Positions 2,977 through 6,486 of a DNA stretch of 64,000 nucleotides are shown here, piece after piece. This DNA is from Roseateles depolymerans (GTDB lineage: Bacteria; Pseudomonadota; Gammaproteobacteria; Burkholderiales; Burkholderiaceae_C). The stretch lies in the NCBI RefSeq assembly GCF_003387155.1, contig NZ_QUMT01000001.1, positions 496,001 through 560,000 of the forward strand, read 5' to 3'. The position numbers were made by a program, and so were the translations under genes. The notes below the pieces were generated by a model that saw nothing but the letters and a program-made list of their open reading frames with translations, did not search any database and was not told the origin of the DNA. Position 1 is the first letter of the stretch. Every line of letters starts with the position of its first letter.

Positions 2977-4062
2977 ATGACCGAATCCTTGCACGCGCCC
3001 GTCATCCTGGACATCGCCGGCACGGCCTTGACGGCGGATGACCGTCGGCGTCTTCAGCATCCGTTGACGGGGGGGCTGATTCTGTTCGCCCGTCATTTCG
3101 AAAGCCGTGCCCAGCTGACGGCGTTGTGTGCCGAGGCCAAGTCGCTGCGACCGGATCTGCTGATTGCGGTGGACCAGGAAGGCGGACGGGTGCAGCGTTT
3201 CCGCACGGACGGCTTCACGGCGCTGCCGGCGATGCGCAGCCTCGGTGAGCTGTGGATGGACGATGCCATGCGGGCCATCCAGGCCGCGACGGCCACGGGG
3301 CTGGTGCTGGCGCTGGAGCTGCGGGCCTGCGGGGTGGACATGAGTTTCACGCCGGTGCTGGACCTGGACCATCACGACGACACCCATCAGTCCTTGAGCG
3401 GCGTGATTGGGTCGCGCAGTTTCCATCGGGACCCGCGGGTGGTGAGTCTGCTGGGCCAGAGCCTGATGCAGGGGCTGGCGCTGGCGGGCATGGCCAGTTG
3501 CGGCAAGCATTTCCCTGGCCACGGGTATGTGGCGGCCGATTCCCATGTGGATGTGCCGGTGGACACCCGCAGCCTGAAGGCGATTCTTGCGGAAGATGCG
3601 CGGCCGTTCGAGTGGCTGAGCCTGAGTCTGTCGGCGGTGATGCCGGCGCATGTGGTCTACCGCAAGGTGGACAGCCGTCCGGCGGGTTTCAGTCGGCGGT
3701 GGTTGCAGGAGATCCTGCGGGAGCGGTTGGGGTTTGCGGGCGCGGTGTTCAGTGACGATCTGGGCATGGCGGGGGCACGGGTCATCGAAGGTCGGCCGGT
3801 GGGCTTTACCGAGGCGGCGATGGCGGCGCTGGACGCGGGGTGTGATCTGGTGTTGCTGTGCAACCAGAGTCTGGAGTCCGGTGGGCAGGCGATTGATGAG
3901 CTGCTCGACGGGTTGAGCCAGGCGCAGTCCGACGGGCGCTGGCACCCTGCGATCGACAGCGAAGCCCGCCGTGCAGCGTTGTTGCCGCAATCAGCGCCGC
4001 TGACCTGGGATGAGTTGATGTTGGCGCCGCGTTATCTGGAGGCTTTGGCGCGACTGCCTTGA
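2977..4062 (+). CDS. nagZ: Beta-N-acetylhexosaminidase NagZ
   Basis: Cytoplasmic glycoside hydrolase of family 3 that removes N-acetylglucosamine from anhydromuropeptides in peptidoglycan recycling. In other bacteria its product can signal beta-lactamase induction. The 361-residue barrel has the loop KHFPGHG (from Lys177), typical of NagZ, and the nucleophile segment FSDDLGM (Asp260). The ATG at 2977 is placed where the family N-terminus (APVILDIAG) needs it; the frame is open 57 bases further up but that overlaps acpS. It is the last gene of the era operon; the next gene lies convergent 42 bases away, and no clear terminator hairpin was seen between them. Confidence 0.95.
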   Translation: MTESLHAPVILDIAGTALTADDRRRLQHPLTGGLILFARHFESRAQLTALCAEAKSLRPDLLIAVDQEGGRVQRFRTDGFTALPAMRSLGELWMDDAMRAIQAATATGLVLALELRACGVDMSFTPVLDLDHHDDTHQSLSGVIGSRSFHRDPRVVSLLGQSLMQGLALAGMASCGKHFPGHGYVAADSHVDVPVDTRSLKAILAEDARPFEWLSLSLSAVMPAHVVYRKVDSRPAGFSRRWLQEILRERLGFAGAVFSDDLGMAGARVIEGRPVGFTEAAMAALDAGCDLVLLCNQSLESGGQAIDELLDGLSQAQSDGRWHPAIDSEARRAALLPQSAPLTWDELMLAPRYLEALARLP

Positions 4063-4104
4063 GCGGCGCGAGGCGACGGTTCGATGCTGGCCTGTGGCGC
4101 GCGT

Positions 4105-4740
4105 TCAGTCTTCTGATGCCCGTTGCGCCATGCGGGCGAACCAGGCGGATTTGCCGGTTTTGTAGAGCTGGTACCAGGCCTCCAGCGTCTCGGCGTTGTA
4201 GATGTCCAGGGTCTCGAAAATCGCTCGCGCGAATTCGATCGGCGCCATGCCGCCGGCAGTGATCAGGCCTTGGTCCAGCACGACCGGTTCATCCACATAC
4301 TGGTCGCCGCCTGCGTATCCCGTGCCGTTGAGATAGCTGGCCGCATTGCTGGTGTGACGGCGCTGGTCCAGCGCCCCGACACGGGCCAGTCCCGCCGTGG
4401 CGCCACAGATCGCCGCCACGCGCCGGCCCTGGTCCAGGAAGTCCTTGGCCTTGTGCGCCGCCTTCATGTGCTCGCCCACATCCCAGCCAGGGCCACCGGG
4501 CAAGATCAACAGTTCACTGTCCTGCGGGAACAATGAGTCCAGCCGCATGTCCGGCAGCACCGACAACCCCCCGGCCGATCTCACCAGTCCGGCACCGGCA
4601 GCCGCCACCGTCTTCACCTGCCATCGACCCGGCGTCTGCTGGAAGTCGGGCTGCTGGATACCCGCGGTGGCAAAGGCGGCTTCCCAGTCAGCGAAGCCGT
4701 CGAACAAATAGAGGTGGACTGTGCGGTCGGGGGCGTTCAT
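4105..4740 (-). CDS. DJ-1/PfpI family protein
   Basis: A 211-residue protein of the DJ-1/PfpI (class I glutamine amidotransferase-like) superfamily. The nucleophile elbow AAICGAT places the reactive cysteine at Cys112, with LILPGGPGW (oxyanion region) before it and an N-terminal acidic residue Glu20 (DWE) that usually activates the cysteine. Members include stress chaperones, deglycases, isonitrile hydratases and cysteine proteases, so substrate cannot be given. The ATG at 4740 fits the family start (VHLYLFDGFADWE); the open frame further up is translation through an inverted repeat and is not expected to be coding. It stands alone on this strand, convergent with nagZ. Confidence 0.85.
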   Translation of the reverse strand: MNAPDRTVHLYLFDGFADWEAAFATAGIQQPDFQQTPGRWQVKTVAAAGAGLVRSAGGLSVLPDMRLDSLFPQDSELLILPGGPGWDVGEHMKAAHKAKDFLDQGRRVAAICGATAGLARVGALDQRRHTSNAASYLNGTGYAGGDQYVDEPVVLDQGLITAGGMAPIEFARAIFETLDIYNAETLEAWYQLYKTGKSAWFARMAQRASED

Positions 4741-4825: not shown

Positions 4826-4919
4826 GGAGAGGGTATGCGTTGCCCCTTTCCTCCATGTCCCCCGGACCCTGCGGGTCCTCCTCCTTTACTTACGGAAAGG
4901 GGCAACGCATACCCTCTCC
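4826..4919. repeat. Inverted-repeat element A with 42-nt conserved centre
   Basis: Perfect 26-bp arms (4826-4851 and 4894-4919) enclose a 42-nt centre (4852-4893). The centre contains its own palindrome GGACCC-TGC-GGGTCC. A second copy of the centre lies in opposite orientation inside element B at 5138-5179 with 40 of 42 bases the same, while the arms of A and B differ. The gap from 4741 to 5238 holds these two elements and no credible gene; short open frames across them are products of the repeat. It sits about 85 bases upstream of the DJ-1 gene start. It could be a REP-like or MITE-like element or a transcript-processing hairpin. Confidence 0.85.
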
Positions 4920-5109
4920 TCACCATCACCGAGCTCTGCCTTGAACCTCCTGCGGGGCACCGAGGTGATGGCTGTGTAGGGAGCCGATCACGGTGAGTGT
5001 CGAGCGACTGGTTGCGGACCGCGATTCAAGCGATCGCGCCAAACAACCAACATCACGAATGCGGCAGGCTCTCCGCACACCACCTCTCCCGCACCACTCG
5101 GTCGATCGA

Positions 5110-5207
5110 AGGGAGGCTGTGCCCCTCCCCCTTTTCCGGAAGTAAAGGAGGAGGACCCGCAGGGTCCGGGGGACATGAAGGAAAAGGGGGAGGGGCACAG
5201 CCTCCCT
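5110..5207. repeat. Inverted-repeat element B with 42-nt conserved centre
   Basis: Perfect 28-bp arms (5110-5137 and 5180-5207) around a 42-nt centre (5138-5179) that is the reverse complement of the centre of element A, with two differences. The arms are pyrimidine-rich toward the centre as in A (ending CTTTTCC against CTTTCC) but otherwise have a different sequence, so base pairing, not sequence, is what is kept. It lies 31 bases downstream of the MFS gene stop (5239, minus strand), where its RNA hairpin could end or protect that transcript. Confidence 0.85.
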
Positions 5208-5238
5208 CCGACCCGACCTCACAAAAAACCAAAACCGT

Positions 5239-6486
5239 TCAGTCGCTCTCCGCCGTCATCCGCAAAACGAGCGCGACCAAGCTGGCAAACGCCGCAAGCG
5301 CCGTCACCCCCACCCAGCCAAACTGGCTCAACAGCAGGCTCCCAAGAGCAGCCCCCGCCGCCATGCCGATGAACATGCCGGTGAAGAGGATGGCGTTGAG
5401 GCGACTCCGCGCAGCCGGGTCCAGCCCATAAACGATGGTTTGGTGGGCGATGAGCGTGGCCTGCACCCCGAAGTCGAAGATGATTGCCAGCACCACCAGC
5501 AGCACAATCGCCGCGGAGCGGTCCAGCAGGGGCGTGATCGACATGGCCGCGAAGGACAGCGCCGTGATCAGTGCGCCGATCTTGGTGACCAGCCCCGGGC
5601 CCCGGTGGTCCGCCACGCGGCCAGCCAGCGGCGCTGCAAGGGCACCCGCAGCACCCGCCAGTCCGAAGGCGCCGGACACAGCACTCCCCAGGCCAAAGCG
5701 GTGGTGCAGCATCACCGCCAGGGTGGACCAGAACGCGCTGAAGGCCAGCGAGATCAGGCCCTGCGCCAGCGTGGCCCGCCGCAGCGACGGGTAGGCCTGC
5801 CACAGGCCCCGCAGGGAACGCATCAGCGCCGGATAGGTCGTGGCCGTCGCCGGGCGAACCGACGGCAGCAGGCGCCAGCTCAGCAGGCCCACCAAGGTCA
5901 GGGCACCCGCAGCCAGCATGAAGACCCAGCGCCAGCCAAAGGCCTGCGCCACCACGCCACTCATCACCCGCGACAGCAGGATGCCCAGCAGCAAGCCCGT
6001 CATCACCTGGCCAACGATACGGCCGCGGTGGTCCGGCGGGCTCAGCGCTGCCGCCATCGGCACCACGTCCTGAGCCAGGGTGGCCGTCAGGCCCAGCAGC
6101 GCACTGGCCAGCAGGAAGGGGGTGTAGGCCGGCACCAGGCCGCACAGCAGCAAGGTCAGCACCAGCAGCACAAACTTGGTCAGAATGACCTTGCGCCGGT
6201 CAAAACGATCCCCCAGCGGCGTGAGGAGCAAAATGCCTGCCGCGTATCCCAGCTGGGTCAGCATGGGCACGGCGCCAATCTGCGCCGCACTGGCGTGCAG
6301 GTCGTCGGCCAGGGGGGCCAGGATCGGCTGGCTGTAGTAAAGCGATGCCGCGCCCAGGCCCGCAGAGGCCGCCATCAGGACGATCAGAGCCGGGGCCGGC
6401 GCCGCCTGCTGCGCCCCGGAATGCCCCGCATGCGAGGCGTTGGCCGGCACTGGGCCAGCGGTCTTGGGTAAAGGAAGGACAGACAT
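5239..6486 (-). CDS. MFS transporter (drug-efflux type)
   Basis: A 415-residue inner-membrane protein with about 12 hydrophobic segments and the MFS loop 2-3 motif GDRFDRRKV (about residue 97), as in the DHA1 family of antiporters. LYYSQPILAPLADD in TM1-2 is typical of the YnfM/arabinose-exporter-like and drug:H+ branches. The ATG at 6486 is preferred because the extra upstream 37 codons (from 6597) run into the promoter region of the divergent LysR gene and look non-coding. Divergent pairing with a LysR regulator 166 bases away suggests that regulator controls it. Substrate unknown. Confidence 0.9.
   Translation of the reverse strand: MSVLPLPKTAGPVPANASHAGHSGAQQAAPAPALIVLMAASAGLGAASLYYSQPILAPLADDLHASAAQIGAVPMLTQLGYAAGILLLTPLGDRFDRRKVILTKFVLLVLTLLLCGLVPAYTPFLLASALLGLTATLAQDVVPMAAALSPPDHRGRIVGQVMTGLLLGILLSRVMSGVVAQAFGWRWVFMLAAGALTLVGLLSWRLLPSVRPATATTYPALMRSLRGLWQAYPSLRRATLAQGLISLAFSAFWSTLAVMLHHRFGLGSAVSGAFGLAGAAGALAAPLAGRVADHRGPGLVTKIGALITALSFAAMSITPLLDRSAAIVLLVVLAIIFDFGVQATLIAHQTIVYGLDPAARSRLNAILFTGMFIGMAAGAALGSLLLSQFGWVGVTALAAFASLVALVLRMTAESD

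Follow-up and report, generated by a model that had tools for sequence, protein, structure and literature searches.

A pair of inverted hairpins with a common core

The window, i.e. the whole 64-kb stretch of Roseateles depolymerans DNA that was analyzed, contains two long inverted repeats between a DJ-1/PfpI-family gene (~4104-4740, minus strand) and an MFS transporter gene (~5238-6450, minus strand), downstream of a family-3 glycosidase gene. Gene calls, here and around the copies elsewhere, were made with a codon-usage script trained on the window. The two elements (Table 1) are the sole perfect 18-nt inverted repeats in the window with starts less than 200 nt apart. The arms of element 1 are 26 nt long and 100% complementary, and those of element 2 are perfect over 28 nt (5110-5137/5180-5207) and reach 32 nt with one mismatch (97% complementary) when taken more widely (5106-5137/5180-5211). 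In both elements the arms are spaced by 42 nt, and the two centres are identical at 40 of 42 positions once one of them is inverted. Arm lengths, centre length and inverted identity were thus all reproduced as claimed in a previous sequence-only reading of this DNA, and the GGACCC/GGGTCC palindrome that it had noticed in the centre was located in the inner hairpins of both elements. A 38-nt piece of the centre, allowing up to 3 mismatches, occurs at 2 places in the window and at none in 100 dinucleotide shuffles. The core of element 2 consists, in this order, of GGAA, GT, a purine tract, the inner hairpin, a second purine tract, AC and ATGAA. The folded strand is the purine one, which is the minus strand in element 1 and the plus strand in element 2.

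Table 1. Coordinates of the two hairpin elements and their parts in the window.
Feature	Position	Strand	Remarks
Element 1, hairpin	4826..4919	- (purine-core strand)	arms 26 bp, 0 mismatches
Element 1, 3' arm (sense orientation)	4826..4851	-	inverted-repeat comparison
Element 1, core, 42 nt, type A, X/Y purine state A/G	4852..4893	-	
Element 1, inner 6-bp hairpin in core	4864-4869/4873-4878	-	
Element 1, 5' arm (sense orientation)	4894..4919	-	
Linker separating both elements of the composite unit	4920..5109	.	
Element 2, hairpin	5106..5211	+ (putative functional strand)	
Element 2, core, 42 nt	5138..5179	+	part roles from covariation
Element 2, purine tract X of internal loop, AAGGAGGA	5145..5152	+	one base swaps A/G with tract Y
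Element 2, inner hairpin with GCA triloop	5153-5158/5162-5167	+	
Element 2, purine tract Y, GGGG	5168..5171	+	

Distribution of the hairpin family

A BLAST search with element 1 retrieved further copies in the genome, and a covariance model (R1) built from 17 copies yielded 48 full-length matches there (E <= 2e-7) plus three partial ones. The 48 copies, once delimited, have stems of 22-33 bp (one reaching 45) and cores of either 41-43 nt (type A, 21 copies) or 49 nt (type B, 27 copies), and 46 of them lie outside called genes. The sequence-only reading had proposed a family of arm-variable elements, and this was borne out: the centre recurs throughout the genome, and the 5' arms of the copies show a mean pairwise identity of 0.52.

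Model R1 found matches in all 15 congeners, from 1 to 45 each (the single match in congener G006 being weak, E 0.002); among 44 other genera sampled, 7 gave matches. At least 120 stretches of the named genome collection contain a pattern of 20 fixed bases; Rubrivivax, Hydrogenophaga, Rhodoferax, Ideonella, Variovorax, Paucibacter, Methylibium, Aquabacterium, Sulfuritalea, Sulfurisoma, Luteimonas and Pseudoxanthomonas are among the genera of the 80 matches listed. A second model (R2), with at most 10 candidates scored per genome, was run on 397 genomes drawn from the phylum and gave matches in 14, namely in 9 of the 16 genomes listed of the own family, in 4 of one other family and, weakly, in 1 of a third. 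Four plasmid records carry the element, and three of these are Variovorax replicons larger than 1 Mb. A conjugative plasmid of Burkholderia anthina (L419) has a copy at 3001-3056, in sense orientation within a catechol meta-cleavage gene cluster. A phage-borne element was rejected, as IMG/VR gave only 2 exact pattern matches and GenBank phages, searched with one 56-nt query, gave none.

In several organisms copies adjoin similar carboxylase genes, which we take to be pccB/accC-like (both genes at L227, L237 and L273, one at L277 and L298), and this suggests positions common to several genera. When the window region and 44 loci were compared with Rfam 15, no family matched the element at its cut-off; the matches that did reach their cut-off, one tRNA and two riboswitches, lie elsewhere in the loci. 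Below threshold, animal-type miRNA precursors were hit (best E 7.7e-5, 38.6 bits for a cut-off of 90) and were discarded as reflecting hairpin shape. In open-licence papers no recognisable description of these hairpins was found, and the family, which is large, is apparently so far undescribed. What is new here is a widespread form of dispersed bacterial palindrome with a fixed core, a free stem and a readable strand.

Core architecture and covariation

On the sense (purine) strand, the parts follow in the order 5' arm, GGAA, GT, purine tract, apical hairpin, purine tract, AC, ATGGA and 3' arm; in other genera, an internal loop GAA/ATGA replaces GGAA/ATGGA. Covariation was assessed in 22 gapless other-genus elements of equal length, chosen from the 143 in which 20 or more of the 24 outer pairs were standard, a selection that raises the percentage paired and cannot alone yield changes on both sides. 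Standard pairs were formed in 97.8% of 814 cells, and in 33 of 37 pairs both partners vary. The covariation score was 0.848, as compared to 0.202 (s.d. 0.017) for shuffled alignments and at most 0.160 when the alignment was slid. Of four helices tested, only the invariant GT/AC helix was devoid of both-side changes.

The purine tracts flanking the apical hairpin, X and Y, vary reciprocally. In congeners, the 45 scorable cores out of 121, which include orthologous and hence non-independent copies, were all A/G or G/A, and never A/A or G/G; elsewhere, among 152 scorable of 170 copies, 129 were A/G, 17 G/A, 6 A/A and none G/G. In type B cores the reciprocity takes the form of four-base tracts that are swapped (GAAG|GAGG, AAGG|GAAT, GAAT|AAGG). 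This is the behaviour that would be expected of a non-canonical purine internal loop. Reading the 3' part as a start codon after a Shine-Dalgarno-like tract (AAGGAGG ... ATG) was rejected, as some other-genus copies have ACG there.

A c-GNA-g triloop closes the apical hairpin in 47 of 48 own copies, 41 of 45 copies of congener G008 and 100 of 170 other-genus copies, i.e. 188 of 263, the other 70 of the 170 being devoid of it. Among these 263 copies, only 5 GNRA and 1 TTCG tetraloops were found; the 12 hairpins in the window available as controls for apical loops were too few. Apical loops of 4 nt, some of them GNRA-like, occur in some cores of congeners such as G002, G004, G009, G013 and G015.

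Strand specificity of stem mismatches

Mismatches were counted on the sense strand, on which the detection models were also built, in fixed windows next to the core, so that trimming could not remove them. The R. depolymerans genome (24 pairs in each of 48 copies) gave 1100 Watson-Crick pairs, 41 G.T, 1 A.C and 10 other mismatches, all of the latter purine-purine; when each arm group was represented by a single copy (20 in all), the counts were 9 G.T, 0 A.C and 3 others. In other genera (first 20 pairs of 170 copies), 3047 Watson-Crick pairs were accompanied by 268 G.T, 13 A.C and 72 others. Transitions yield G.T and A.C with equal chance, and the large excess of G.T on the sense strand therefore argues that neither the duplex nor the other strand is screened: the sign of the mismatches reveals which strand folds. 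What is maintained seems, from these counts, to be the folded single purine strand and not duplex DNA, and a function as cruciform or duplex is disfavoured. The selection of the elements as hairpins, put forward in the sequence-only reading, is well supported by the covariation and by the strand-specific G.T.

Classified by neighbouring genes, 44 own copies comprise 18 parallel, 12 antiparallel and 12 convergent settings and 2 between divergent genes; single copies in other genera comprise 8 parallel and 13 antiparallel ones, and only 3 of 128 copies elsewhere lie between divergent genes. The G.T:A.C counts, which include orthologous and thus non-independent copies, were 107:1 in parallel, 108:3 in antiparallel, 104:1 in convergent and 17:0 in divergent settings, and the bias was weaker (66:8) in copies without two called neighbours. 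A bias that is the same whatever the direction of the neighbours, together with the lack of a clear direction preference, argues against a cis-acting role in the mRNA of neighbouring genes. Nor was a shared neighbour gene found, the largest clusters of neighbour proteins holding only 5 of 277.

Where neighbouring copies in other genera lie less than 400 nt apart, 52 of 53 are divergent in sense, with gaps of 34-69 nt in 48 of the 52. Either strand of such a unit thus carries a single sense hairpin. Divergent genes flank none of the 90 paired copies whose neighbours were called. Within the 52 pairs, left and right members are biased alike (G.T:A.C of 84:6 and 86:3, respectively). The pair in the window has the same divergent order, but its linker is 190 nt long. 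The close likeness of its two cores is not a general rule for inverted pairs, since in other genera the median core likeness was 0.796 within pairs as compared to 0.769 for random pairs. At L128 (G000:C1:665886-666290), three hairpins stand in direct order with a spacing of 146 nt, an apparent tandem duplication of a whole unit.

A folded strand as the putative functional form

The interpretation that we favour, giving it slightly better than an even chance, is that these are dispersed, intergenic, strand-specific REP-like hairpins whose core would be read on the folded purine strand, single-stranded DNA being slightly favoured as the form. A long stem of largely free sequence would present the conserved core, composed of an internal loop, the short GT/AC helix, a purine-purine internal loop and the apical hairpin, usually c-GNA-g. 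The core, displayed on the folded purine strand, would be the target of a putative trans-acting factor, presumably a protein, and the stem would only clamp the core, so that any pairing sequence would suffice. The functional form might be single-stranded DNA exposed at replication or by supercoiling; an RNA transcribed independently is a slightly less favoured candidate. The family turns the common design of bacterial palindromic repeats around, its loop being fixed and its stem largely free, and it would point to a putative binding partner in many environmental beta-proteobacteria. The family itself, its spread, its covariation and strand-specificity, the indifference of its bias to the direction of neighbouring genes, its persistence at orthologous loci and the replacement of cores with arms kept (see below) are direct observations made by comparing sequences.

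The foremost alternative is that the purine strand is transcribed and that the RNA hairpin is functional, e.g. as a protein-binding or mRNA-processing element, a possibility that we take seriously while judging it to have clearly less than an even chance. The excess of G.T on the sense strand would correspond to G.U in RNA and is more classically an RNA signature; the compensatory changes throughout, the intergenic location seldom found between divergent genes, the copy in sense within the catechol-degradation cluster and the GNRA-like apical loops of some congeners would all fit. Like the structured RNAs of Rfam, the family has covarying helices, non-canonical purine pairs and strand-specificity; it differs from them in matching no Rfam 15 family at its cut-off, in its 48 copies and in lacking a clear preference of gene direction. 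Against an RNA also stand the antiparallel copies, which show the same G.T bias, and the absence, by eye, of a conserved promoter-like block upstream beyond ~20 nt of flank. The c-GNA-g triloop is a preferred form of very stable DNA mini-hairpins, and DNA hairpins of this type are in use; its prevalence tips the balance towards single-stranded DNA, not decisively in view of the 4-nt loops of several congeners. For attC and other hairpin sites of single-stranded DNA, it is the folded single strand that is recognised while the paired sequence is variable. The hairpins described here would resemble them in the recognition of a folded strand, and differ in how conserved and variable parts are arranged.

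Comparison with REPs and mobile elements

The likeness to REP, BIME and REPIN sequences lies in the tens of intergenic palindromic copies per genome, the inverted dimers and the strand asymmetry; the difference lies in the stem, which is long and largely free in sequence while the core is conserved, whereas in a REP it is the other way round. The ranges given in a REP survey are 5-13 bp for stems and 2-20 nt for loops (PMC3733652), as compared to stems of 22-33 bp (one to 45) and cores of 41-49 nt in the present family. The tags GTAG and CGTC are rare near the stem foot: counted per side and tag within a distance of 10 nt, at most 3 of 48 own copies have one, as do at most 10 of 170 copies elsewhere; in the genus, the flanks at the stem foot read CAGTCCTCGGT / GCGCAGTCAAAGAA.

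REPs proper would be mobilised by a RAYT, a Y1 HUH transposase, and a linked transposase was looked for, as the sequence-only reading had suggested. A Y1_Tnp (HUH) gene with a hairpin in sense at its 5' end was found in G000, G008 and G011 (L358, L359, L360). This gene type occurs in every congener except G007 (14 of 15), which showed only a second Y1 type; two of the translations compared (L373, L376) seem to be in a wrong frame. In the remaining 12 of 15 genus genomes examined no copy was found beside this gene, and none of 120 element loci of other genera carries a Y1 gene as judged with a profile built from the genus genes. The association, seen in 3 of 15 genus genomes with the own one included, is weak and appears not to be general. 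Although dispersed, intergenic, strand-asymmetric palindromes in inverted pairs and these three Y1 neighbours would suit REP/BIME or REPIN sequences moved by a RAYT, this explanation is unlikely given the scarcity of both Y1 neighbours and foot tags, the stem and loop sizes outside the surveyed REP ranges and the conservation of the loop instead of the stem. The family is accordingly classed as REP-like in its lifestyle and not as a REP.

MITEs and IS ends are likewise short and multicopy, and one copy of the hairpin does reside on a conjugative plasmid; here, terminal inverted repeats common to the copies are absent (arm identity 0.52) and, for the Y1 type tested, no transposase is generally associated. 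The earlier verdict that the elements are not a standard REP, IS or MITE is supported by the stem, loop and tag features and by the arms, which are not shared between copies.

Evolution at orthologous loci

Tens of copies at orthologous positions constitute a natural experiment on whether repeats are kept perfect by selection or by template switching. Same-orientation orthologues in G008 were found for 31 of the 48 own copies, and four congeners together gave 60 orthologue pairs, of which 57 were kept (3 were dropped because the core was mis-delimited) and 50 have an arm identity of at least 0.7. G008 has both elements of the window at its orthologous locus, and their arms differ there by compensated changes. 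The two flanking genes are adjacent in G001 too, with no element detected between them, the junctions being too diverged from the window locus for an insertion to be read. Target-site duplications were sought through empty sites, but G001 and two further loci gave no clean site, the comparisons being too diverged.

For 28 own copies compared with G008 at an arm identity of at least 0.8, 606 pairs were unchanged and 37 were compensated doubles (18 of transition type, 19 of transversion type), along with 20 single G.T, 8 other single mismatches, 0 A.C and 1 other double; some arm indels were compensated in the opposite arm. These numbers bear on a purely mutational explanation, in which template switching between arms keeps the repeats perfect without functional selection. 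The homogenisation of arms and the inversion of spacers by template switching have been described (PMC8604942). The equal frequency of transversion-type and transition-type doubles, the paucity of unpaired intermediates and the compensated indels are consistent with such a process. Yet it would correct G.T and A.C alike, leaving the 41:1 ratio of the own genome unexplained, it does not account for the conservation of the core, and members of inverted pairs share a replication direction while each is biased in its own sense strand, which together make it very unlikely as the whole explanation. Within the favoured reading of a folded purine strand, arm pairs may nonetheless be partly re-templated by replication template switching. 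The regeneration of arms from the partner strand, as formerly suggested, is possible and fits the compensated transversions and indels; no direct event was seen, and regeneration leaves the excess of G.T over A.C unaccounted for.

At three loci, core types A and B were swapped with the arms kept (arm identity 0.73-1.0); a fourth probable swap (arm identity 0.65) and a fifth locus (arms 0.42) were also noted, the total being 8 of the 57 pairs. Since point mutation is most unlikely to convert into each other types A and B that are found at many loci, cores are probably copied between loci. Taken further, the hairpins could form a so far undescribed class of strand-specific nucleic-acid element, whose core, of type A or B and with flipped purine tracts, would be an exchangeable cassette copied among dozens of loci, each locus with its own stem of two co-evolving halves, and would be read as folded single-stranded DNA by a common factor, a reading that we hold tentatively and consider rather doubtful. 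A factor common to Burkholderiales, Sulfuritalea-like bacteria and some Xanthomonadaceae forms part of this cassette proposal and shares its tentative standing.

Between G000 and G008, the entire element L085/L160 is inverted together with ~19 and ~13 nt of its flanks. This disposed of an in-place inversion of the loop at that locus and makes re-insertion, or differential loss from an inverted pair, possible. A G008 element has an orthologue at L414 (G000:C2:472300-476300, near 575-595) that breaks off within the core; ~2.8 kb with unrelated genes follow, and then the other flank resumes.

Bidirectional transcription terminators, which would explain a placement downstream of genes and seldom between divergent ones, are the least probable explanation of all, as TTTT within 12 nt after the stem was found in 0 of 48 own copies in either direction and in 0 and 3 of 170 elsewhere, and a generic terminator needs neither a conserved core nor reciprocal purine covariation.

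Extended cores and further hairpins at element loci

Extended cores were seen at L417, L416 and L418 (contigs C5, C6 and C1 of the own genome), L309 (G011), and L224 and L303 (other genera). Placed between GGGGGA and the ATGGA/ATGAGC part, the insert (GAGCCCGGACACAAACAGTCC...) consists of two hairpins, the first having a conserved stem and the second a variable one, and the outer arms are still paired. At L195, in a Hydrogenophaga MAG, two NMT1 xanthine riboswitches lie close together on opposite strands (1438-1492 and 1574-1631). At L212, a GAGCCCGGACACAAGCAGTCC hairpin occurs twice (~2444-2568 and ~4437-4561) beside gene fragments, which presumably represent the end of an IS91-type transposase and a group II intron reverse transcriptase.
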